A stretch of 64,000 nucleotides of DNA from Candidatus Sumerlaea chitinivorans (GTDB lineage: Bacteria; Sumerlaeota; Sumerlaeia; Sumerlaeales; Sumerlaeaceae). The translations under genes were made by a program, and so were the position numbers. Positions 2,567 through 37,784 of the stretch are shown piece by piece; the stretch's first letter is position 1, and each line of letters starts with the position of its first letter. The stretch is taken from contig CP030759.1 of assembly GCA_003290465.1 (NCBI GenBank), positions 2,368,572 to 2,432,571 on the forward strand, in the 5' to 3' direction. The notes under the pieces are model-generated. The model was not told where the DNA came from and made no database searches. It worked only from the letters and a program-made list of their open reading frames with translations.

Positions 2567-3094
2567 ATGATTGGACTACGCAAGGCCCCGGAGCTTGAGA
2601 CACTCAAGCAAATGGCAGATCGCTACCCCAAGTTAGATGCGCGCTCCCTGCATTTTGCGCTTTGTGCCCTCGTGATAAGTTCGGATATTGAAGCTGCCCT
2701 CGACCGGCATTTCGCCCACTATGGGCTCAGCCACGGCCGTTTCGTGGTGCTGGTGAATCTCTACTCCGCGCCGAATCACGAGCTTTTGCCCTCGGCGATT
2801 GCGGACTTGGTGCGTGTCAGCCGAGCCACCATGACGACTTTGCTTACAGGCTTAGAGCGTGCGGGGCTAATCCAACGCCATAGTCGGCCGAGCACAGACC
2901 GACGGACGAGTCCCGTGCGACTGACTTCGAAGGGGCGAGCTCTTCTCGAGCGTGTCTTACCAGATCACTACGCGCGCCTCACCAAAATGGTGAACCACCT
3001 CACGCGCGCTGAGCAACGAACGCTCCTGCAGCTCATGGAAAAGTTGCATCAAGGCCTGTCCGAACTTCACGGCACCAACAAGGAGACCCTATGA
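2567..3094 (+). CDS. MarR-family transcriptional regulator
   Basis: The 175-residue product has a winged helix-turn-helix of the MarR type. The recognition helix region is around SAIADLVRVSRATMTTLLTGLERAGLI, followed by the wing with the DRR motif (STDRRTSPVRLTSKG), and helices flank it for dimerisation. MarR proteins are dimeric repressors released by small-molecule ligands. The ATG at 2567 is preferred because GAGAG lies 8 bases upstream; an in-frame ATG at 2534 would add 11 residues but lacks a visible ribosome site. Its stop overlaps the start of the HlyD-family gene (ATGA at 3091-3094), so the regulator, adaptor and pump are co-translated. It probably senses a substrate of the pump and represses the operon. 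Confidence 0.85.
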   Translation: MIGLRKAPELETLKQMADRYPKLDARSLHFALCALVISSDIEAALDRHFAHYGLSHGRFVVLVNLYSAPNHELLPSAIADLVRVSRATMTTLLTGLERAGLIQRHSRPSTDRRTSPVRLTSKGRALLERVLPDHYARLTKMVNHLTRAEQRTLLQLMEKLHQGLSELHGTNKETL

Positions 3095-4191
3095 GCGCCG
3101 AGATCCCGAAAGCAACCGAGCCTGCCAGCACGCCGTCGTCAACTCCCCCTGTCGAACCGAAGCCTCCCACGGCAAACCGAGTGCGGGGGCTTATGCTCGT
3201 CGGGATTCTTCTGGTTGGAGTCGTTGCGGCTTGGCCCATTGTTCACAAATGGCTCACCCATGAATCCACGGACGATGCTTTTATCGAAGCTCACGTAGTG
3301 CAGATTGCCCCGCAGGTGGCTGGACGCGTTGCGCGTGTGTTTGTGGACGATAACCAAGAGGTGACCTCCGGGACACTGCTCTGCGAGCTCGATCCGGCCG
3401 ACTACGAGGTTGCGGTCGCGCGCGCCAGAGCCGCCCTCGAGCTCGCGCAGGCTCAGACCGAGCAAGCACGAGCGGCCGTTGCTGCTGCACAAGCAAACGT
3501 GGGTCAAGCGGAAGCCGCGGTTCTCGTCGCTCAAGCGACAGCCGAGAACGCGGAAGCCGATCTACAGCGGTATGAAAACCTCTACCGCACGCAGTCCATT
3601 TCTGAGCAGACTCTTCTGACGGCACGTACCCAAGAGCGGGTGACAAAAGCACAAGTCGAACAGGCCAAGAAGCAGCTCACCGCTGCACAAGCTCAGGTTG
3701 AGACGGCTCGAGCTGCTTTGCTTGCCGCACAAGCACAAGAGAACGTGGCCCGCACCCAGCTCGCAAAGGCGGAACTCGACCTCTCGTATACTCACGTGCG
3801 CGCCCCCATGGATGGGCGAGTCACCAAGAAAAACGTCGAGCCCGGCCAATTCCTTGCCGTCGGCCAGCCTATTCTTGCACTTGTGGGACGCGACCGCTGG
3901 GTCGTAGCGAATTTCAAGGAAACGCAGCTCGCGCACATGAAACCCGGCCAGCCCGTTAAGATCCGTATTGACGCGATGCCGGGCCAATCCTTTGCAGGGA
4001 AGGTCGACAGCATCCAAGCAGGCACTGGCTCGCGCTTTAGCCTACTCCCCGCAGAGAACGCCACGGGCAACTTTGTGAAAGTGGTCCAGCGAGTGCCGGT
4101 AAAGATTGTCTTTGATCCGCCCCTTGTGCCCGAAATTGCCGGACGCCTCGGCGCCGGCATGAGCGTCGTTCCCCAAGTGAAGGTAAAATGA
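3091..4191 (+). CDS. HlyD/EmrA-family membrane-fusion protein of an efflux pump
   Basis: The 366-residue product has a Pro/Thr-rich cytoplasmic tail, one TM segment near residues 31-50, then STDDAFIEAHVVQIAPQVAGRV, which is the typical first half of the biotinyl-lipoyl domain. A long Ala/Gln-rich coiled-coil hairpin follows (about residues 105-215), then the second lipoyl half (AELDLSYTHVRAPMDGRV) and a beta-barrel. EmrA-type adaptors sit in the inner membrane and connect an MFS pump to an outer-membrane channel. It overlaps the MFS gene by ATGA at 4188. No TolC-like channel gene is present in the window, so the outer-membrane partner must be encoded elsewhere. Confidence 0.9.
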   Translation: MSAEIPKATEPASTPSSTPPVEPKPPTANRVRGLMLVGILLVGVVAAWPIVHKWLTHESTDDAFIEAHVVQIAPQVAGRVARVFVDDNQEVTSGTLLCELDPADYEVAVARARAALELAQAQTEQARAAVAAAQANVGQAEAAVLVAQATAENAEADLQRYENLYRTQSISEQTLLTARTQERVTKAQVEQAKKQLTAAQAQVETARAALLAAQAQENVARTQLAKAELDLSYTHVRAPMDGRVTKKNVEPGQFLAVGQPILALVGRDRWVVANFKETQLAHMKPGQPVKIRIDAMPGQSFAGKVDSIQAGTGSRFSLLPAENATGNFVKVVQRVPVKIVFDPPLVPEIAGRLGAGMSVVPQVKVK

Positions 4192-5783
4192 CTGCTGCCG
4201 AGCTCCTTCGCCCTCGCCACGTCAATCCTTGGCTGGTTGCGTGGGTGGTGGCTTTGGCCACTTTTATGGAGGTGCTCGACACCACCATTGCAGCCGTTTC
4301 CTTACGTCACATCGCCGGCGGGCTTGCGGCCGGACTCGACGAAAGCACCTGGGTGTTAACAAGTTATCTTGTAGCGAACGCGATTGTAATCCCCATCAGT
4401 GGATGGCTCATGACGATCGCCGGGCGCAAGCGGTTCTACATGGGTTGCACGGCGCTTTTCACGTTGGCCTCGGCGTTGTGTGGGCTTGCGCCGTCGCTCT
4501 CCGCTCTCATTTTTTTCCGCCTTCTCCAAGGTGCCAGCGGAGGAGGTCTTCAACCCGCCGCTCAGGCCATACTTGCCGACGCTTTTCCCAAAGAGCGCCA
4601 CGGGCAGGCCTTCGCATTTTACGGGATCGCTGTGGTCTTCGCGCCAATTATTGGGCCCACGCTCGGCGGATGGATCACGGACAATTTCTCATGGCACTGG
4701 ATCTTCCTCATCAATGTCCCGGTGGGGATCGTCTCACTCCTTCTAACAGCGATTTTCGTCTTCGACCCCCCCGCTCTCGTCGAAGAGCGTAAACGGCGGC
4801 TTGCTGAGGGCGTGCGTATTGATGTCGTTGGTCTTATCCTTGTCATCGTCGGCCTTGGTTCGTTGGAGCTCTTTCTGGACGAGGGAGAGCGCCACGATTG
4901 GCTGGCCTCGCCCTTTATCCGCACCTGCGCGATTAGCGCCGCCGCATGCCTCTCAGCACTTCTCGTGTGGGAATTGCGCCACCCTCGGCCGGTGGTGGAT
5001 ATCCCCCTCTGGCGGAATCGGAATTTCTTCGCCGCGTCCGTGGTCATGTTTTCGATTGGCTTCATCCTCTATGGTACAACCCAACTGCTACCGCAGCTCC
5101 TGCAGACGCTTCTTGGCTACACCTCGACACTGGCAGGCATGGCCATGACTCCGGGCGGCATCGCGGTGCTTTTCATGATGCCCATCGTCGGCCAGCTCCT
5201 CAGCAAGTATCACGTCCAGCCGCGCACTCTCATCGGTGTGGGGCTCTGCATCATGGCCGCCGCGATGTGGCACATGGCGGGCTTTAATCTGCAGATCACA
5301 TTTCAGCAAGCGGTCCTCGCACGAATTTTTCAGGCAGCAAGCCTTGGCTTCCTCTTTGTTCCCATCAACACGATCGCCTACGCGGGGCTCCCACCCGAAA
5401 AAAGCAACAATGCCGCGGCTCTCATCAATCTCGTACGCAACATCGGTGGCAGCACCGGCATTGCCGTCTGCACGGCGATGTTATCGCGCCGCACCCAATT
5501 TCACCACCTACGCCTTGGCGAGCATCTGAGCTCCTTGGACCCGCAGCTCCAACAGTTTCTCTCCACCGTGGAACACCTTCTGCCAGCTGGCCAACCATCC
5601 ACCCTTGCCTCGCCATCCCCTCGCGCTCTTGCTTTGCTGGATGCCATGGTGAACCGGCAAGCAGCAATGATGGCTTACTTGGATATCTTCGTCTTCCTGA
5701 CCTACGTCGCACTGGCCATGATTCCGCTGGTTTTCGTACTTCGCAAAATCCAGCCCCGAGGTGGCCCCACGCTTGCTCACTGA
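4188..5783 (+). CDS. EmrB/QacA-type MFS drug transporter (DHA2, 14 TM)
   Basis: The 531-residue product is of the length and pattern expected for a 14-helix DHA2 proton-drug antiporter. Family features include FMEVLDTTIAAVSL in TM1, ESTWVLTSYLVANAI, the GRKRFY loop and the motif-C-like region with GIAVVFAPIIGPTLGGW. With the preceding EmrA-like protein it would export hydrophobic compounds across both membranes. It is the last gene of the marR-emrA-emrB operon. The specific substrate cannot be read from the sequence. Confidence 0.92.
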   Translation: MTAAELLRPRHVNPWLVAWVVALATFMEVLDTTIAAVSLRHIAGGLAAGLDESTWVLTSYLVANAIVIPISGWLMTIAGRKRFYMGCTALFTLASALCGLAPSLSALIFFRLLQGASGGGLQPAAQAILADAFPKERHGQAFAFYGIAVVFAPIIGPTLGGWITDNFSWHWIFLINVPVGIVSLLLTAIFVFDPPALVEERKRRLAEGVRIDVVGLILVIVGLGSLELFLDEGERHDWLASPFIRTCAISAAACLSALLVWELRHPRPVVDIPLWRNRNFFAASVVMFSIGFILYGTTQLLPQLLQTLLGYTSTLAGMAMTPGGIAVLFMMPIVGQLLSKYHVQPRTLIGVGLCIMAAAMWHMAGFNLQITFQQAVLARIFQAASLGFLFVPINTIAYAGLPPEKSNNAAALINLVRNIGGSTGIAVCTAMLSRRTQFHHLRLGEHLSSLDPQLQQFLSTVEHLLPAGQPSTLASPSPRALALLDAMVNRQAAMMAYLDIFVFLTYVALAMIPLVFVLRKIQPRGGPTLAH

Positions 5784-5893
5784 GTTCCCGTCCTCCCCCG
5801 CATGCCGCGCTTTTCCTCTGGCAAACAAATTCACTGGTTTGTTAGCATTTGTGCATCGGGACACAAAGGTGTTCCTGCGGGGAGCGTTTGATC

Positions 5894-6883
5894 ATGCGAT
5901 ACTTTCTTGGTATTAGCTGCGCACTTCTTCTTGGGGTGCTGAACCTCGCCTCTGCCACGGAGCCGCCGCCGGTCCTTCGCGTGGATCTCAATGCAGACGG
6001 TCGCCCAGAGGAGATTTCCGCTCGCAAGTCCGCGACCACTGAATTTGCAGAATTCTATCAGGTGACGGTTCGCGATTCGTCAGGGACGCTGCTCTGGCAA
6101 AGTCCGAAAGTCACGACTACGGATCACCCATTTGCGTTCGGCGTTTGGGAGGAGGGAGACTCCCTGCCCCAAATTGCCGCTGACGTGGATGGCGACGGTG
6201 CGGTCGAACTCCTTGTCCCTGCTCCGCGAAGTGACGTCAGTCCCACCTATTACCGCATCTTCCGTTGGCAAAAGAGCGCTTTCGAACACGTGCGGAATCG
6301 AGCTCTTTTCGCCAGCGCGATGAACCCCGAATCGTTTACGTGGATCACGGAGGCACCGATCTACGGCCGGTGGATTGACGAATTCCTCGGCACGGACCCA
6401 GCGGGGAATTTCACCGTCCGGATCGGTGAGATGCAAGAAGGGCGCTACAGAACAGGCTTAGCCAGTGTGGAGCGCACCTCGACCGGCTTTCGCATCGTTC
6501 GTTGGATCAACCCCTTGACTGAAGTCGGTCCTACAGAATCCCCCGAGCAGCCCCCAGCTACATCCCAACCCTCCGCGAACATGGCGATCGTACGCTACCT
6601 TGCCGCAATCACGGATGTGGATCGCCGCAGCTCCTCCGGGGTTCCACTAACCGAGCTCAAGGATATTCTTGCGCAAGATCGGGCAAACGTTCACCGGTTC
6701 GGGCGGCGCCAACGTGGCGATGAGCTCGATAGTTACTTCACCACGCCTGCGCACCGAGAGTTATTTCAACGCCTCCGCGTGAGTTGTCCGTTGAAGCTTG
6801 CCGAACGCATCCGCACCGGAGGCAACGTCCTCATTTTCGTCACGGTTTATCCCGACCGAGTCGAAATAGAAGAAGCCCCCTGA
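5894..6883 (+). CDS. Secreted protein with FG-GAP/EF-hand-like calcium motifs, unknown function
   Basis: The 329-residue product has a signal peptide (MRYFLGISCALLLGVLNLASA, cleaved near residue 21). Two short Asp-rich loops, RVDLNADGRPEEI and AADVDGDGAVELL, resemble the calcium-binding DxDxDG loops of FG-GAP/VCBS repeats. The C-terminal half (RYLAAITDVDRRSS onward) matches nothing I recognise. The ATG at 5894 is chosen over an in-frame ATG at 5849 because GGGGAG at 5879-5884 is well spaced and the signal peptide starts there. It is convergent with the tricarboxylate operon and its last codons form the left arm of a hairpin. Role unknown; an envelope or extracellular location is inferred. Confidence 0.6.
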   Translation: MRYFLGISCALLLGVLNLASATEPPPVLRVDLNADGRPEEISARKSATTEFAEFYQVTVRDSSGTLLWQSPKVTTTDHPFAFGVWEEGDSLPQIAADVDGDGAVELLVPAPRSDVSPTYYRIFRWQKSAFEHVRNRALFASAMNPESFTWITEAPIYGRWIDEFLGTDPAGNFTVRIGEMQEGRYRTGLASVERTSTGFRIVRWINPLTEVGPTESPEQPPATSQPSANMAIVRYLAAITDVDRRSSSGVPLTELKDILAQDRANVHRFGRRQRGDELDSYFTTPAHRELFQRLRVSCPLKLAERIRTGGNVLIFVTVYPDRVEIEEAP

Positions 6884-6917
6884 GGGCATTGCGGCATGCA
6901 ATACCGTTGGGGGCTTC
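6872..6917. terminator. Hairpin between convergent genes, probable bidirectional terminator
   Basis: GAAGCCCCC at 6872-6880 pairs exactly with GGGGGCTTC at 6909-6917. Between them GG...ATTGC pairs with GCAAT...CC, extending the stem. The left arm overlaps the stop of the upstream plus-strand gene, and leuD ends 51 bp to the right. There is no U-tract, so classical intrinsic termination is not certain. Confidence 0.5.
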
Positions 6918-6967
6918 CTGAACTGACCGCGCTCGATCTACGCGACCCGAAAAACGTGCTCGATCCG

Positions 6968-7471
6968 CTACGCCGCTTGTCCGCGCTCTTCCAGAAGCTT
7001 CTTGCGCGCGTAGGGGATGAGACCGCCGGCGTCAATGATCGCCTGCCGCGCAGGCGCGTGCGGCACGATGGCGAACTCTTTTCCAGAAGTCTTGTTCACG
7101 ACCTTGTCCGGCAAGATCTCGAGCTCATCGCCGACTTCCGCCTCGACCTCAGGGGCGATGACCGTCTGCAGCCCCAAATTCACGGCATTCTGGAGGAAGA
7201 TTCGCGCGATCCCACGCGCCACGATGATGAGACCCCATCCCTTTAGGCACGACGCCGCCTGCTCGCGCGACGAGCCGCACCCGAAGTTCTGCCCCGCCAC
7301 AATCACCGAGCCCGGCGGAATTTCGCCTTTATTAAGCTTCTCGTTAAATTCCTTGTGATCTGCAAAACAGTACTGCGGCGTTTCGGTCGGCAGGACCGTG
7401 GCCATGAAGCGTCCCGGATAGATCGCATCCGTCGAAACGTCGTCCCCGACTTTGAACACTACCTTCGCCAT
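6968..7471 (-). CDS. LeuD-like small (swivel) subunit of an aconitase-family dehydratase
   Basis: The 167-residue product matches the swivel domain of isopropylmalate isomerase and homoaconitase: a GDDVSTDAIYPGR start, the NFGCGSSREQA motif that positions substrate and cluster, and VIAPEVEAEVGDELEI. It pairs with the LeuC-like protein encoded immediately upstream, and its ribosome site (AAAGGAG) overlaps the end of that gene. The dimer would dehydrate and rehydrate a 2- or 3-hydroxy di/tricarboxylate. The substrate could be isopropylmalate, citrate, homocitrate or dimethylmalate; the substrate loop DAIYPGRFM does not settle it. The neighbouring lyase and dehydrogenase argue against a plain leucine operon, so no symbol is given. 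Confidence 0.85.
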   Translation of the reverse strand: MAKVVFKVGDDVSTDAIYPGRFMATVLPTETPQYCFADHKEFNEKLNKGEIPPGSVIVAGQNFGCGSSREQAASCLKGWGLIIVARGIARIFLQNAVNLGLQTVIAPEVEAEVGDELEILPDKVVNKTSGKEFAIVPHAPARQAIIDAGGLIPYARKKLLEERGQAA

Positions 7472-7477
7472 AGCTGC

Positions 7478-8767
7478 TCACGCTCCTTTCCGTGGGTCGG
7501 TGATCACGCCGGTGATGGCACTCGCGGCCGCCGTCGCGGGCGAGCAGAGATAAACCTCGGCGTTGGGGTTGCCCATGCGTCCTTTGAAATTCCGGTTCGT
7601 CGTCGAGAGCGCGACCTCGCCGTCCGCCAACGCGCCTTGGTGCACGCCCAAGCAACAGCCGCAGCCTGAGTTCATTACGACCGCGCCCGCTTCCATCAAC
7701 GTCTGGATGTAGCCGCGCTCAAGCGCTTCACGGTAAATCCGCCCCGACGCCGGGAATACCAGCATGCGTGCGTTTCTGGCAATTTTCTTACCCTTGAGAA
7801 TCCGCGCGGCAATCTCGATGTCGTCGAGCCGTCCGTTCGTGCACGAGCCGATGACGATCTGATCCACTTTGCGTCCCTCCACGGAGCCGATCGGCTTGAC
7901 GTTATCCACGGTGTGCGGGCACGCCACCTGCGGCTCGAGTTTCGAAACGTCGATTTCGATCACCTTCTCGTACTGCGCGTCGGCGTCGGGTACTACCATC
8001 TCGAGTTCATCGGTCACGCCGGCTTCCTCACGCAGATAGCGCACGGTTTCTTCGTCGGCCGGGAAAATCCCCGCCGTCGCGCCGGCCTCCACGGACATGT
8101 TCGAGAGCACCAACCGGCTGCTCGTCGGCATTGCCTTTGCGGTCGAGCCGTGGAACTCCATCACGCGGAAGTTGGCCCCTTGCGCGGAAATCTTGCCAAT
8201 CAGGTAGAGGATAATGTCCTTAGCCGACACCAGCGGCGGAAGCTCACCCTCAATCACGACTTTGATCGTGGGCGGGACTTCGACGTTGAGCACTCGCCCC
8301 AAGGCCCAAACGGCCGCCATTTCCGTGGCACCAATACCCCACGCGATTGCGCCGAGCGCCCCATGCGTGGTCGTGTGCGAATCGGTGCCCACCACGACCA
8401 TCCCCGGCCGAACATATCCGTTCTCGGGCAAGATCTGGTGGCAGATTCCGCCCTCGTCGCCGCGAATCTCGTGGAATTTCGTAATGCCCTGCTGAGCCAC
8501 GAACTCGCGGATCTTCTTTTGGTTGTTCGCGGTTTTCGCGCTTTCGGCGGGAACGCGGTGGTCAAAAATGATCGCGATTCGGCTCGGATCCCAAACCTTG
8601 GGCTCAAGCCCGGTATCCTTGAAAATCTCTTTGAACTGATTGATGACCAGCGCGGCGTTCTCGTGCGACATAGCGAGCCCCACTTGCGGCTCCACCACGT
8701 CGCCGGGCGAAACCCGCGCTTTCCCCGCTGCCTTCGCAAGGATTTTTTCTGCAACTGTTGCTCCCAT
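7478..8767 (-). CDS. LeuC-like large [4Fe-4S] subunit of an aconitase-family dehydratase
   Basis: The 429-residue product carries the family hallmarks: GTDSHTTTHGALGAIAWGIG, the cluster cysteine in GSCTNGR and the pair in SGCGCCLGVHQG. Its length is that of the short LeuC2/homoaconitase type rather than the roughly 470-residue enterobacterial LeuC. AAAGGAGC lies ahead of the ATG at 8767. It is third in a minus-strand operon after the dehydrogenase and the lyase genes, and 6 bp before the small-subunit gene. Reversible dehydration of a 2- or 3-hydroxyacid in the cytosol is firmly supported. Whether it works as isopropylmalate isomerase, aconitase, homoaconitase or 2,3-dimethylmalate dehydratase is open. 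Confidence 0.88.
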   Translation of the reverse strand: MGATVAEKILAKAAGKARVSPGDVVEPQVGLAMSHENAALVINQFKEIFKDTGLEPKVWDPSRIAIIFDHRVPAESAKTANNQKKIREFVAQQGITKFHEIRGDEGGICHQILPENGYVRPGMVVVGTDSHTTTHGALGAIAWGIGATEMAAVWALGRVLNVEVPPTIKVVIEGELPPLVSAKDIILYLIGKISAQGANFRVMEFHGSTAKAMPTSSRLVLSNMSVEAGATAGIFPADEETVRYLREEAGVTDELEMVVPDADAQYEKVIEIDVSKLEPQVACPHTVDNVKPIGSVEGRKVDQIVIGSCTNGRLDDIEIAARILKGKKIARNARMLVFPASGRIYREALERGYIQTLMEAGAVVMNSGCGCCLGVHQGALADGEVALSTTNRNFKGRMGNPNAEVYLCSPATAAASAITGVITDPRKGA

Positions 8768-8853
8768 AGCTGTGCTCCTTTCGCGACCTCGGAGGGAAGG
8801 CCCGGGGGCGAAGCCTCTCGACTCCGCCCCCTTTTCCTTACCCCTCGACTCTC

Positions 8854-31385: not shown

Positions 31386-34300
31386 TCACCGCGTATAGAG
31401 GTTTTCGAGCACCTTTTCGACATTCTCAGGCGTGATCTCCATCCCCCGCAGCGAGCGCATCGCCACGATCTGATTAAGCGCGCCTTTCAGCTCGCGGACG
31501 TTTGACGTGATCCGTTCGGCGAGCAGCGTCACGACCTCCGGCGGCACTTCCAAATTCGCCGTTTCGATCTCGCGGTTCAGAATCGCGATACGCGTCTCGA
31601 GATCGGGGGGCGCAATGTCCACGATCACGCCCGCACCAAAACGCGAAAGCAGCCGATTCTCCAAACGCGCAATGTCCTTCGGCGGACGATCGCTCGTGAT
31701 CACAATTTGCTTCTTCGCTTGGAAGAGTGCGTTGAAAATGTGGAAGAACTCTTCTTGCGCACGCTCCTTGCCCGCGAGGAATTGCACGTCGTCCACGATG
31801 AGCAGGTCCACCGATTTGTAGCGGGAGCGGAACTGCGCAATCGTGTTGGTCTGGATGGCCTCGACGACCTCAGCCGTGAAGTCCTCGGAGTTCGTATAAA
31901 TGATCCGTACATTTGGATTCTGCCGCAAAATGTAGTTCGCGATCGCGTTTGCGAGGTGCGTCTTGCCAAGCCCCACATCCGAGTAAATGAACAACGGGTT
32001 GTAGGCCTGCGCCGGTGCCCGAGCCACCGCCAAGGCCGTCGCGTAGGCAAAGTTGTTGTTCGCCCCAATCACAAAGTGCTCGAAGTCGTACTCGGGCACA
32101 ATTTGGAGGATGGGCGTCGCGGGCACGGCTGCTTGCACAGGCCCAGCAGCGGCCACCGTTTGCGGAATGTTCGCGGAAATAAAGCGATACTCCTCGAGTG
32201 CGCGGGCCTGATCACCTAAGGACGCGTAAAGCTCCGCACGCTGCACCCGCGCGGACATGCGAAGTGGCGTCTCGTTGATAACCTCATCCAATACCGCGAG
32301 CGCTCGTTCCTTTTGCTCCGCAGCGATCAAGCGCTTGGCAAATTCCTCGAGTTCAACCCATGCGGCTTCGCGATCGCCACTGGCCATGAGCACTGTTGTC
32401 AATGCCCGCACCGCAGTTTCATCCATGGGCGCGAGCGCAACTGTTTCGCGCGCGAGTTCGATCGCGTCGGTGAGTTGCCCAAGTTGCTGCAGGAGATCCA
32501 CAAGCGCCACTCGCTCCACGAGCGCATCGGCCTCGCGTCCAAGACTTTCCAAAATACGGATCAGCAAGCGGTGCCCCTGCACATTCTCCGGGTTCGTGAG
32601 CACCAGCCGACGTGCGGTCGCGAGGGCGGTTTCCAGCTCTCCTTGCTCCGCATGGGCCTCGGCAAGCTCCAGCAGGCGCAGCTCGAGCTTGTCCGTCGCG
32701 CCCGTTTCCTCGTGCAGCGCCACAAGCTCCTGAAGCGCCCGGGCATTGCGTGGGGAGATTTCCAAAATGCGCTCGAGAGCCGCTTCCACTTTCGGTGCTT
32801 GTTTCACCTGACGGTGCGCCGCGGCTTTGGCAAAGAGGCGTTCGAGCGCAGCAGGAATGTCGGTAGCCTCTAAGCAGAGTGCGATGGCTTCATCGCGAAG
32901 ACTATCGTCCAGGGGATCGGCCTCGATAAGCTCGTCGTAGATTGCGAGCGCCTGCGGCAATTCTCCGCGCTCGCGATGCATCTCGATCCGCTGACGTCCA
33001 CGTCGTTTCGCCTCCTCGAAATCCCCCGATGCCAACGCCACCGCCATGAGATCGCTCAGCAAATCCAAGTTTCCGGGATGCTTGCCGAGGCCAGATTCGA
33101 GCAGCGTTCGCGCTGCCTCGTAATCTTGTTTTGCCATGAGCTGCTTGGCAAAGCTCAATGTCGTGGCCAAAGCACGTTCACTTTGCCCGGCATCATATTG
33201 AGCGGCGATCAAACGGCGCCAAAGCGTGGCGTTCTCGCCTTCGAGCTTGAGGGCGCGTTCGAGCGCTTTGATTTCCGCTGAGTAATCCCCTCGGCTTCGC
33301 GCTGTGTCCGCTCGCTGGAGCGCCGTCGCAACTTCAAACTGGCGACGCTCTTGGTCCGCACGCGCCGCATCCCCCATCTGCTCATAAATTTCTGCCCGGA
33401 TCTTTCGCGGCTCAAGGCGCGCCGGCATCAACGCGAGACATTCACTCAGCACCCGCAGAGCTTCCTCGAATTGACCTTGCTTCGCGTGCAGGCGGGCAAC
33501 CGCCTCGAGCTCTTCAACACCACGCTCGACCTCGCCCAAAGCCACGAGCGTCTCGGCCATCCGCATCCGCGCGAGCGCATCATCGGGTGCAAGCGCCACC
33601 GCCTCTTCTTCTGCGGCCAGCGCTTGCTCGCCCTGCCCAGTACGCGAATAGAGTTCGGCGAGCCCGTGAAGTTCCACAACTGCCTTATCGGTGGCATTTG
33701 TGCGTTTCAACAAGTCAATGAGTGCGCGACGCAGCTCCGCGTCGTCCGGCTTCGCTGCAATGGCTCGCCTCAACGCCAACTCAGCGAGATCAACGGCTCC
33801 TGACTGGGTATGGATTGCGGCCAAGCGCTGCAGTAGCTCGACCAAGAGCCGAGTATCTCCGCGCTGCTCCGCGATGCGCACCAATCCCTCGACGGGCGCC
33901 GCGGCACCCGGATCCAAAGTCACGGCCCACTCAAATCTTCGCTCGGCCCGTTCGTAGTCTTGCGCCTGCAGCGCGCGGTTCGCCTGCTCAAGAATGAGAC
34001 TCATGGCCTTCTCTGTCAGGCCAGCCTGCACCAGAAATGCGGCATAGCTTTCCGCGAGGGCTTCATCCTTCGGAGAAAGCGCAAGCACCTGCTCGAACAC
34101 CTGCACAGCTTCTTTGGTGTTTTTCTGAGCAAGCAAGATGGCAGCCAGCTCACGCCCTACTGCAATTGCGGCCGGCAAGTCGCTCTCGCGCAGGAGAAGC
34201 TCGAAGAGCGTCCGCGTGAGCTCCACGTTCCGCGGATCGCGCGCCCGCCCTTGCTCAAGTAACTCGCGCGCTTCCGCGATGCGCTTCTCGGCAATCAAAA

Positions 34301-37300
34301 GGCGGGCAAGGTGATGGGTAGCGCGGCTCGCATCTTCCACATTGCCGGCCTGAGCTTCGCATTCGATGAGCTGACGCAAAAGCTCCACATTCTTTTGGTC
34401 GTAGTTGAGGGCTTCACGCAACATTGCGGCCGCACGGGCCCAATCCCCCTGCTCGCGGTAGGTCCCAGCCTGCCGCAAGAGGCTCCGCAGATAAAACTGG
34501 TTGAGCTCCTCCTGCGCCTTATCCGATTCACCTAACTTCTCATAAACCTCAGCGCGCAGACGCCGCGCGCTCAGACGCTCCGGGGCAAGTTCGATAAGCT
34601 GATTCAATGCCTCAAGGGCAGGACGGTACTTTTTATCCTCGGCGAGGAAGGTGGCGAGCGCCTCCAATTGCAATGCCGCTGCATCCACCTCTCCAACTGC
34701 CAGCAATTGCTCGATGTATTGCTGACGAACTGCAGGATCTGTGGGAGCCATTTCCACAGCGCGCTGATAGGCAGCAAGCGCCTCCGACACTCGCCCAGCT
34801 TGCTTATGGATCGCACCGATCTGCTGGAGGGTTCGCACTGCGTCCGCGGGTCGCTCCTGACTCACGTAGGCGTCAACCAGTGAACTCAGGACGGCTACAC
34901 TCTCCGGCAAAACCTTTGCCGCACGGCGCAGGATCGTGACCGCTTTCTTCGCTTGCCCTGCTTGCTGGTATAGTCGGGCAAGCGCCACGGCATAAGTCTC
35001 AAACTGTGCAAAATTCTTCTGTTGTTCGTAAAGGGCGACGAGCTCCTCGAACACCCGTTCATCGTTGGGTCGCCGTTCGGCAAGCTCCAGCAAGGCCCGC
35101 TCCGCAACGTCAAGCTGGTTCGCTGCCCGATGTTGCTTAGCTAATGCAAGCAGGCGCTCATCCGCTTCCTCCGCGCGCCCGATTTCCCGGAGGAAAGTCA
35201 CGTACTTGAGTACCAGCTCAGCATTATCTGGATCGCACGCGACAATCTGGCTATAGACCTCAGCGGCTTCGTCGTTCCGGTCGAGAATCTGAAGCAGTTC
35301 CACAAGGTACTGCCCACGTTCCACCGCCTTTGAGTTTTCCCCCATTTGACGCAACAGGTCGAACAGCGCACGGTTCGTCGCAACGTCGTCCGGCGATTTC
35401 GCAAGAGCCTGCTCCAAAGTGGCTTGCGCCTTCGCCAGAAAGCCACGCTTTTGCTGGATCGCGGCAAGATCGCGGGCAACCCGACACGCTTCGGCCGCGT
35501 TCCCCCGACTAAACTCGCATGCCACAAGCTGCGCCAGAAGCTCCTCATTTTCAGGATCTTTTTCCAGCGCGGAACGTACAACCCCCGCTTCCGCTTCATA
35601 TGCGCCTTGAGCGTGATGGAGCCGCGCAAGTTCCAGCCGACTCGCTTGCGCCTTCACCGCGTTGCCCACACGCTCGTAGAGCTGAATGAGGCGCTCGAGT
35701 CCCGCGACGTTATCGGGGCGAAGCGCAGTCAAGCGCTCGAGCGTCGCAATAGCCTCCCCATACGCCTGTCTCGCTTCGTAGGCATTCGCCAAACGCAGCA
35801 GTGTGTCCGCATAAAGCGTCTGCTCCCCTTGCCCATAGTAATATTTCGCAAGCGCTTCGATCGCCGGAATAAACATGGCATCCAACGCAAGAGCTCGGTT
35901 GAGCAATTCGAGAGTGGTTTGCGCATCGCCACGCTCCACCGCCACGTTCACCAGCTTCATGAGCTCCTGTAGGGCTTGATCGCGTCGCCCCACTTGATTG
36001 AGCACTTCCACAAGCAGCAAGTGGAGTTCGCGCGCCTCGGGAGCCACAGCACACACCGACCGCACGCCTTGCTCGGCCTCCTCGTTACCTCCCGCAGCAA
36101 GCCACTCTTCGCACGCAAGACGCGCCTGCTCGGTGGCAAGTTGGATCCTGTCGACAGCAGCTAATGCGCGAGCGTATTTCATGCGCAATTCCGGCGTGGG
36201 CGGAACATGCGAAACTGCCCGCTCATAAAACTCGACCGCTCGAGCGGGTTTCGTGCCCACCGTTGCGTCAGCCAGCGCCTCGAACTCCGCGGCGGCCTCT
36301 TGGCGCGCCCGCAAGTTGCCACTCTCTCCCCACTTCTCCAGCGTCGCAGCACGCGCCACACGCAACTCAGTCGGATCTTTCGCAAAAGCTTGGGCTTGGT
36401 CGTAGACGCGCACAGCATGCGCAAAATCGCCCCGCGCCGCAAGCACCTCTGCAAGTTTGCCGTACGTTGCGAGCGCTTTACCCTGGTTTCCCGCTCCCTG
36501 ATATGCCTCGGCCAGCAACTCTAAAGCTGTAAGATTCTCGGGTGCCGCTGCAAGGAGCTCCTCGAGCTCTTGAATCGCGCGTTTCCAATTGCGCGCTTCC
36601 ATGGAGGCCCGGGCTGCACGCACACGGAGCCCGATCGCCTCCTCCTGCATCCCCAGATCATGGAAGAGGGCACTCAGCTTTTCGGCGGCTTCGTCTGTGA
36701 GTGGGACTGCGTCCAGAATTTTGCGCAGTACAGTTCCCGCCTCCTCGCGCCGCTCGTTCGCAATGAGCCATTCCACCGTCTCAAAAACTTTTGGGATCCA
36801 ATTCCCGCCTGCATCCGCCAGAATTGCGAACTCAGCAAAACGCACGCGCAGCCCCACGTCCTCCGGCGCACACTGGATAGCCAATTCGAGACTCGTGGCC
36901 GCGCGGTTAAAATCCGCCTCGTGGATGGCGGCCTGTGCACGCTCGGAAAGGAAGACCGCCGCCTGCTCCGGCTGCCCCATCTGCTCGTAGGCCTGCAAGA
37001 TGTGGGGCACGACATCCACCACGTCCAACTTCAGCGCATCCACGCGCTTATAGTTGTCCACCGCAGCCGCAAAATCTCCGACCGCTTCGTAGAGGTCCGC
37101 CGCACTCATGAGTTCTTCGAGGGCGCGATCCACCTCACCTTGCTCAGCAAGCAATTGGCCAAAGAGTGCGTGCGCCTGCGCATTCCCCGGGTCCAGCTCA
37201 GCCCACTTCTCCGCATGCTCGAAGGCCGCGCTTCGCTCACCGCGCTCCGCGTAAAGGCAGGCTAATTCCCCGTGAATGCGCGCAAGCTCCTCCGTGTTGC

Positions 37301-37784
37301 CCGTGGCGGTGTAAACCTGCACAAGACCTTTGAGTGCCCGCTCTTCCCGAGGGGCAATCTCCACGATTTCGCGAAACGTCTTCCCCGCCTCTTCGTACGC
37401 CTCCAGCGCCAAGAAGTTTTTTCCTATCTCGAGCTGTTTCTCCACGTACTCGGGATCAATGGGAAGCTCGACCTTCAGGCCGAACTTCTCCACCAGTTCC
37501 TTGAGTGCATCCTCGAGTGGGATCTCACGCGATAGCGCGTAGAGATCCACCAACGTGCCGCCGCTTGCCCCTTTGCACAGGCCGTACATGCATCGGAAGG
37601 TGCGCTTGCCTTTATCTATGATGAGCGTGCGAAAGACCGTCTCTCGGTGAATCGGGCAAAAGCCGCGGATCGTTTCCGCGCTCTCTTGCAATTTGTCTGG
37701 CCGGTAACCAATCAGTTCCAGTAGCTGGCGGATATCCAGCTGACTGTTGACCTCAGCGATAACCTTTTCCGAGTAAGGGCTCAT
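31386..37784 (-). CDS. Giant fusion: CHC2-like zinc finger, TPR superhelix, DnaA AAA+ domain
   Basis: One uninterrupted frame encodes 2132 residues. Residues 1-108 resemble the DnaG-primase CHC2 finger: Cys43 and His46 (GFCPIH), Cys65 and Cys70 (RCMYGLC), then GGTLVDLYAL. Residues 110-1890 are TPR-like helical hairpins, several dozen, Ala/Glu/Leu-rich. Residues 1899-2132 match DnaA domain III: YDFEHFVIGANNNFAYATAL, Walker A VGLGKT (Lys1941), Walker B LLIVDD (Asp1998-1999), the QFLAGKERAQEEFFHIFNAL helices, box VII Arg2048 (LLSRFGAG) and sensor II Arg2097 (NVRELKGAL). The protein stops there: DnaA domain IV, which reads DnaA boxes, is absent. It should bind ATP and may oligomerise or contact DnaA, helicase or single-stranded DNA, but its role is unknown. 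It is far too long and lacks domain IV, so it is not the housekeeping DnaA. Confidence 0.9.
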   Translation of the reverse strand: MSPYSEKVIAEVNSQLDIRQLLELIGYRPDKLQESAETIRGFCPIHRETVFRTLIIDKGKRTFRCMYGLCKGASGGTLVDLYALSREIPLEDALKELVEKFGLKVELPIDPEYVEKQLEIGKNFLALEAYEEAGKTFREIVEIAPREERALKGLVQVYTATGNTEELARIHGELACLYAERGERSAAFEHAEKWAELDPGNAQAHALFGQLLAEQGEVDRALEELMSAADLYEAVGDFAAAVDNYKRVDALKLDVVDVVPHILQAYEQMGQPEQAAVFLSERAQAAIHEADFNRAATSLELAIQCAPEDVGLRVRFAEFAILADAGGNWIPKVFETVEWLIANERREEAGTVLRKILDAVPLTDEAAEKLSALFHDLGMQEEAIGLRVRAARASMEARNWKRAIQELEELLAAAPENLTALELLAEAYQGAGNQGKALATYGKLAEVLAARGDFAHAVRVYDQAQAFAKDPTELRVARAATLEKWGESGNLRARQEAAAEFEALADATVGTKPARAVEFYERAVSHVPPTPELRMKYARALAAVDRIQLATEQARLACEEWLAAGGNEEAEQGVRSVCAVAPEARELHLLLVEVLNQVGRRDQALQELMKLVNVAVERGDAQTTLELLNRALALDAMFIPAIEALAKYYYGQGEQTLYADTLLRLANAYEARQAYGEAIATLERLTALRPDNVAGLERLIQLYERVGNAVKAQASRLELARLHHAQGAYEAEAGVVRSALEKDPENEELLAQLVACEFSRGNAAEACRVARDLAAIQQKRGFLAKAQATLEQALAKSPDDVATNRALFDLLRQMGENSKAVERGQYLVELLQILDRNDEAAEVYSQIVACDPDNAELVLKYVTFLREIGRAEEADERLLALAKQHRAANQLDVAERALLELAERRPNDERVFEELVALYEQQKNFAQFETYAVALARLYQQAGQAKKAVTILRRAAKVLPESVAVLSSLVDAYVSQERPADAVRTLQQIGAIHKQAGRVSEALAAYQRAVEMAPTDPAVRQQYIEQLLAVGEVDAAALQLEALATFLAEDKKYRPALEALNQLIELAPERLSARRLRAEVYEKLGESDKAQEELNQFYLRSLLRQAGTYREQGDWARAAAMLREALNYDQKNVELLRQLIECEAQAGNVEDASRATHHLARLLIAEKRIAEARELLEQGRARDPRNVELTRTLFELLLRESDLPAAIAVGRELAAILLAQKNTKEAVQVFEQVLALSPKDEALAESYAAFLVQAGLTEKAMSLILEQANRALQAQDYERAERRFEWAVTLDPGAAAPVEGLVRIAEQRGDTRLLVELLQRLAAIHTQSGAVDLAELALRRAIAAKPDDAELRRALIDLLKRTNATDKAVVELHGLAELYSRTGQGEQALAAEEEAVALAPDDALARMRMAETLVALGEVERGVEELEAVARLHAKQGQFEEALRVLSECLALMPARLEPRKIRAEIYEQMGDAARADQERRQFEVATALQRADTARSRGDYSAEIKALERALKLEGENATLWRRLIAAQYDAGQSERALATTLSFAKQLMAKQDYEAARTLLESGLGKHPGNLDLLSDLMAVALASGDFEEAKRRGRQRIEMHRERGELPQALAIYDELIEADPLDDSLRDEAIALCLEATDIPAALERLFAKAAAHRQVKQAPKVEAALERILEISPRNARALQELVALHEETGATDKLELRLLELAEAHAEQGELETALATARRLVLTNPENVQGHRLLIRILESLGREADALVERVALVDLLQQLGQLTDAIELARETVALAPMDETAVRALTTVLMASGDREAAWVELEEFAKRLIAAEQKERALAVLDEVINETPLRMSARVQRAELYASLGDQARALEEYRFISANIPQTVAAAGPVQAAVPATPILQIVPEYDFEHFVIGANNNFAYATALAVARAPAQAYNPLFIYSDVGLGKTHLANAIANYILRQNPNVRIIYTNSEDFTAEVVEAIQTNTIAQFRSRYKSVDLLIVDDVQFLAGKERAQEEFFHIFNALFQAKKQIVITSDRPPKDIARLENRLLSRFGAGVIVDIAPPDLETRIAILNREIETANLEVPPEVVTLLAERITSNVRELKGALNQIVAMRSLRGMEITPENVEKVLENLYTR

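Follow-up and report, generated by a model that had tools for sequence, protein, structure and literature searches.

A DnaA-type ATPase domain ends a giant zinc-domain and solenoid protein in the class Sumerlaeia

Introduction

DnaA is usually taken as one four-domain protein with few architectural relatives. Within its AAA+ domain III, the roles of R281, R285, V211 and R245 are described in the available part of one report (PMC6127211), and the accessible text of another states that Asn187, Ile190, Ile193, Arg202 and Glu228 of the Bacillus subtilis protein contact or flank the bases of the DnaA-trio (PMC10721633). Two AID positions, Arg227 and Leu290 in Escherichia coli, are needed for functional domain III contacts at oriC, according to the available section of a third (PMC5742627). 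The genome of Candidatus Sumerlaea chitinivorans BY40 is termed the first complete one of its phylum in the accessible portion of PMC8092238.

Here we describe a gene in a 64,000-nucleotide stretch of Candidatus Sumerlaea chitinivorans DNA (contig CP030759.1, positions 2,368,572 to 2,432,571; hereafter the window), in which the ATPase domain of DnaA forms the end of a very large protein. No description of this zinc-solenoid-DnaA architecture was found in the open-licence literature, and the protein may work alongside the replication initiator as a factor that has so far escaped notice.

Results

A sequence-only reading of the window had taken positions 31386-32090 as a feature in its own right, a DnaA ATPase domain without domain IV. 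The domain was confirmed but its extent was not: this segment makes up the last 234 codons of one 2,132-codon open reading frame (31386..37784, minus strand, as are all features of the gene given below; the listed ATG start is putative). A separate 234-residue protein does not exist there and a short stand-alone DnaA-like protein was ruled out, since the frame continues without a stop over 2,132 codons. The encoded giant protein runs from a DnaG-type zinc-binding domain through an alpha-solenoid of 54-residue TPR-like units to DnaA domain III, after which it stops. Domain I is absent from the N-terminus of the giant protein, where the zinc domain stands instead. The same order in a single open frame was found in 26 further genomes.

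The C-terminal domain (residues about 1894-2132; 31389..32105) was assigned by PF00308, TIGR00362 and phylogeny. The PF00308 (Bac_DnaA) match covered residues 1897-2056 (E 4.4e-66, 222.5 bits), while the NCBIfam DnaA model TIGR00362 gave 339.6 bits, just below its cut-off of 343.9. The best PDB profile match was B. subtilis DnaA domain III (8bv3, E 9.8e-100), with which the modelled ATPase of a short homologue, L062, also aligned (E 1.2e-14, TM 0.89 by target). The lid of domain III is the last part encoded, with sensor II arginine at residue 2097 of 2,132, in agreement with the proposed lack of domain IV. A stop likewise follows soon after domain III in 34 of the 35 copies, the remaining one (L054) being cut by a contig end.

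Phylogenetic analysis bore out the expectation that the domain would cluster within DnaA. Before the trees were built, a canonical DnaA at a contig end (L069) and a duplicate of a giant (L031) were removed. The first tree held 96 of 98 rows, the rows of E. coli DnaC and of the host's own loader being left out, and the second held 60 of 98 rows with 14 of the 35 giants. The giant domains formed one clade inside DnaA in both, with support of 99 for all 35 in the first tree and 100/98 for the 14 in the second, from bootstraps that had not settled; they did not group with Hda. In the best tree the canonical DnaA of the class formed a clade separate from the giants, yet the AU test did not reject a tree that unites the two (p 0.308). 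The idea that the giant domain is simply a recent copy of the class's dnaA was set aside on this best tree, with the same reservation. An IstB/DnaC-type loader, which the earlier reading had also argued against, was ruled out by score (IstB_IS21 35.9 bits versus Bac_DnaA 222.5 bits), the loader rows having been left out of the trees. Comparison with L037 gave a dN/dS of 0.12 for the AAA domain and 0.24 for the zinc domain, with dS near saturation; synonymous changes were saturated in four of six comparisons.

Conservation was assessed in a site table of 35 giants, 29 canonical DnaA proteins of the phylum and 30 DnaA proteins from elsewhere. All six ATPase and oligomerisation residues (E. coli K178, D235, D236, R281, R285 and R334) are kept in 35 of 35 giants. 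The Walker A motif of the window protein, SDVGLGKT (residues 1935-1942; 31959..31982), retains its lysine and has serine in place of the first glycine; across the giants this first position is S in 26, A in 4, G in 4 and R in 1, versus G in 29 of 29 canonical DnaA proteins of the phylum. Invariant among the giants are the Asp-Asp of Walker B (residues 1998-1999; 31788..31793), the arginine finger R2048 (E. coli R285; 31641..31643), box VII R2044 (E. coli R281; 31653-31655) and sensor II R2097 (E. coli R334; 31494..31496).

The same table served to locate the initiator-specific (ISM) helices, which lie between the Walker A and Walker B motifs (residues about 1966-1993; 31806..31889). Most ssDNA-contact positions are retained, in support of the earlier reading: position 190/211 is V in 17 giants, I in 15 and E in 3, I193 and R202 are each kept in 33 of 35, E228 in 35 of 35, K243 in 33 of 35 and R245 in 28 of 35. 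The adenine-reading Asn187, in contrast, corresponds to Ala1971 in the window protein and is kept in only 6 of 35 giants, versus 28 of 29 phylum DnaA proteins and 27 of 30 from other phyla. Loss of DnaA-box specificity fits the absence of domain IV.

A similar division applies to the residues of the filament interface, which had been expected to be kept. The arginine finger, box VII, Walker A and B and sensor II residues are unchanged throughout, but the AID positions are altered in most or all members: the Arg227 position is K in 22, R in 11, S in 1 and L in 1 (versus R in 59 of 59 other DnaA rows), and the Leu290 position is V in 27 and I in 8. In addition, E337 is replaced by K and R342 by Q, each in 32 of 35 giants. 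With the AID changes, contact with canonical DnaA may be lost, and because of them co-assembly of the giant domain with DnaA filaments, as read from these residues, is rated as possible and not higher.

The N-terminal domain (residues about 1-108; 37461..37784) was identified by PF01807, an AlphaFold model and Foldseek. In a search of the host genome PF01807 matched the N-terminus with 24.7 bits (25.1 with neighbours) against a gathering-level cut-off of 24.9. The domain of homologue L043, modelled from an alignment of 22 of the 28 N-terminal sequences (six without the ligands were left out), reached a pLDDT of 90.9. Foldseek aligned this model with the primase zinc domains 1d0q (E 3.0e-5, TM 0.69/0.75) and 2au3 (E 3.8e-4), and with nothing else in the PDB at E <0.001; a search with sequence only returned the same two entries at E 0.036 and 0.038. 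C43, H46, C65 and C70 (C-x2-H ... C-x4-C; 37575..37658) are candidate zinc ligands, the CHCC set being present in 22 of 28 sequences, the window's included. The six sequences that lost candidate ligands (L048, L050, L056, L057, L058 and L059) all belong to one family, f13, which has lost most of the ligands but otherwise retains both the N-terminal domain and its fusion. No TOPRIM domain was found in the giant protein among the matches listed, which comprise 25 of 27 Pfam families.

Between the two ends lies a TPR-like array with a 54-residue period (residues about 114-1876; 32157..37445), recognised by its periodicity and by 32 TPR-like matches to Pfam TPR families. In each of the 27 proteins tested, and likewise in four of four relatives without DnaA, autocorrelation peaked at lag 54 with a value higher than any obtained from 50 shuffles. 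The array ranges from about 520 to 1,770 residues across the family. Three helices form each solenoid unit in the model of L062 (896 residues, pLDDT 82.6), whose pTM of 0.44 makes the relative placement of its domains unreliable. An Ala/Pro-rich linker, evident in the sequence (residues about 1877-1893; 32106..32156), joins solenoid to ATPase; in the L062 model the matching stretch, residues 599-648, precedes the ATPase with pLDDT <50.

A PF00308 search of 40 Sumerlaeota (BRC1) genomes recovered the long fusion in 35 of the 39 belonging to class Sumerlaeia, that is, the window's copy and 34 more. It returned no copy in G010, G011, G032 and G035 of the class (one of the four is 92% complete), nor in G039, a phylum member of another class. 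In 27 of the 35 copies a single open frame spans both the zinc and the DnaA domain; the frame is short in seven, six of which are cut by a contig end. In G029 the giant gene (L035, 5036-11732, plus strand) occupies two overlapping frames of 548 and 1,752 residues, from a frameshift or an assembly error. Most class genomes carry a separate canonical dnaA alongside the giant. The host genome, a single 3.29 Mb contig, has a complete dnaA (L001, 510 residues) and a dnaG-like match (L004); elsewhere it holds L003, which we take from its sequence to be a DnaC-like loader gene, adjoining a frame presumed to be DnaD-like.

No gene neighbour is conserved class-wide among the 35 loci, conservation being confined to some families. 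A protein with a membrane-helix-like segment is encoded directly downstream in 9 of 35 loci, one of about 690 residues without assigned function downstream in 11, and an upstream frame, presumably nadC from its sequence, is present in 7. DnaA-box-like sites are not in excess in the window (3 seen, 2.1 expected).

A search of 79 genomes from outside the phylum yielded no fusion of zinc domain, solenoid and DnaA. Strong matches to the zinc domain (E <1e-20) occurred in four of 346 outside genomes (G304, G076, G167 and G221), none of which joins it to DnaA; that in G304 corresponds to locus L088 of UBP4_UBA6127 in position and frame length. In a scan of named genomes, 16 of 19 zinc-domain loci came from BRC1 or Sumerlaeota/Sumerlaeia/Sumerlaeaceae; because the scan relied on a single peptide pattern, it could have overlooked more divergent copies in other genomes. 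The host itself encodes two proteins with zinc domain and TPR-like repeats and without DnaA (L119, 2356-10215, minus strand, 2,619 residues; L120, 4845-6356, minus strand, 503 residues), and further ones are found in UBA6127 (L088, 967 residues; L121, 3,058 residues) and G167 (L122, 1,257 residues).

Other architectures were noted. A related zinc domain is joined to a DnaB-like helicase domain in G201 (L126, 3921-6194, minus strand), and a zinc domain to a GGDEF domain in G167 (L123, 2883-3764, minus strand). L172 of G062 (3512-8776, minus strand; 1,754 residues) contains a long coiled coil with DnaA AAA+ parts close to both its ends, L173 of G099 (2643-4685, minus strand; 680 residues) has two domains III in tandem with no domain IV seen, and L174 of G110 (3657-5894, plus strand; 745 residues) has domain III in mid-protein followed by a Cys-rich stretch. 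G304, G167, G054 and G105 each carry two DnaA genes of full-length size.

The earlier reading had suggested that the domain may act like Hda. As membership of that family this was not borne out: the giant domain scored 88.6-92.9 bits against the Hda model (NCBIfam TIGR03420; cut-off 194.8), lower than the 128.6 bits of the host's own DnaA, and Hda was therefore ruled out by family score. No Hda passed this cut-off in any of the 40 phylum genomes. Such an absence is common, only one of 14 control genomes passing.

Discussion

We tentatively favour, at somewhat less than even confidence, the reading that the giant protein is an ATP-switched scaffold which engages DnaA, ssDNA or both in the control or organisation of initiation. 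It would be a very large cytoplasmic scaffold whose ATP switch was borrowed from DnaA. Judging from its conserved residues, the motor probably binds and hydrolyses ATP, may pack head to tail in the manner of DnaA, either against itself or against the end of an ATP-DnaA filament, and could hold ssDNA without trio specificity. Because domain IV is absent, the protein would be unable to find DnaA boxes itself; DnaA or ssDNA would have to recruit it to the opened origin, while its solenoid and zinc domain might extend to DNA or to other proteins of replication. It would most probably limit or hydrolyse ATP-DnaA, or link the opening of the origin to assembly of the primosome, in a class without recognisable Hda. 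A role in initiation is supported by the single reading frame, the DnaA assignment, the single clade, the presence in 35 of 39 class genomes, mostly alongside a canonical dnaA, the ATPase and ssDNA residues, the DnaG-type zinc fold, the lack of Hda and the dN/dS values. Against it stand the lack of a class-wide neighbour and of a DnaA-box excess, the zinc domain in proteins without DnaA, the ligand loss in f13, the changes at AID and Asn187 and the four class genomes without a copy.

A scaffold with no part in replication is the main rival. In this view the zinc-domain and solenoid proteins would be general scaffolds of the cytoplasm, one of which, in this class, captured a DnaA ATPase domain to switch its oligomerisation in signalling, surface assembly or some other process. 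It is distinctly possible, if on balance doubtful. It ranks first among the rivals because zinc-solenoid proteins free of DnaA occur in several contexts (L119, L120, L088, L121 and L122) and the neighbours give no class-wide hint; the zinc-GGDEF protein, the membrane-helix-like neighbour in 9 of 35 loci and the changed AID positions also speak for it. However, the strict conservation of the ATPase and of most ssDNA contacts exceeds what oligomerisation switching by itself would appear to require, and the zinc fold matches primase and has a relative on a DnaB-like helicase domain. The lack of Hda above cut-off in 40 genomes would fit another reading, in which the giant substitutes for Hda in function, as an AAA+ regulator that prompts DnaA to hydrolyse its ATP once initiation has occurred. 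The retained Walker A and B, arginine finger and sensor II residues and the Hda-like lack of domain IV would fit such a partner, and the altered AID positions suit a regulator rather than an initiator. We nevertheless regard this substitution as improbable, given that the giant scores below the host's own DnaA on the Hda model (92.9 versus 128.6 bits) and that Hda falls short of the cut-off in most control genomes too.

The primase-type fold and the DnaA-type ssDNA motif, together with the presumed loader beside a DnaD-like frame elsewhere in the genome, would also accommodate a primosome organiser, in which the DnaA end would grip either the opened origin or DnaA, the zinc domain would sample template or assist DnaG, and the solenoid would span the distance between them. 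We consider this very improbable: the ligands are lost in f13, the zinc domain occurs in non-replication architectures as well, and a single zinc domain is no primase, TOPRIM being absent among the matches listed.

Returning to the favoured ATP-switched scaffold acting in initiation, a bolder statement would be that Sumerlaeia possess a second initiator-family protein, its helicase-recruiting and box-reading ends exchanged for a primase-type zinc domain carried on a very long arm of repeats, in which one polypeptide physically couples the opened-origin complex of DnaA and ssDNA to priming or to a distant regulator. This we hold to be rather unlikely. Re-use of the initiator ATPase would be demonstrated by a class-wide protein in which the DnaA motor and ssDNA motif are kept and the ends have given way to parts of primase and scaffold type. 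With its AID and Asn187 positions changed and the others frozen, the giant would also be a natural experiment for telling apart the DnaA interface residues that act in ATP hydrolysis from those that act in opening the origin.

Compared with DnaA, the giant shares the fold and sequence of domain III, including the Walker A lysine, Walker B, arginine finger, box VII, sensor II and most ssDNA contacts. It differs in lacking domain IV, in having a primase-type zinc domain and a long solenoid of 54-residue repeats in place of domains I-II, and in its changes at AID-1, AID-2, Asn187, E337 and R342. Like Hda, it has a DnaA-type AAA+ domain without domain IV; unlike Hda, it falls below the family cut-off and has a large N-terminal part, and it keeps the Walker A lysine and ISM residues that E. 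coli Hda lacks in the alignment. Its zinc domain shares the fold and the CxxH...C...C ligands of the DnaG domains (1d0q and 2au3), but the second half is C-x4-C rather than the C-x2-C of primase. The five CHC2-type zinc and TPR-like solenoid paralogues all resemble it in their N-terminal zinc domain, and the three tested (L119, L121 and L122) in their 54-residue period, whereas no DnaA domain was found in any of the five. The fusions L172, L173 and L174 of unrelated genomes share DnaA domain III with no domain IV seen, and none shows the zinc-solenoid part.
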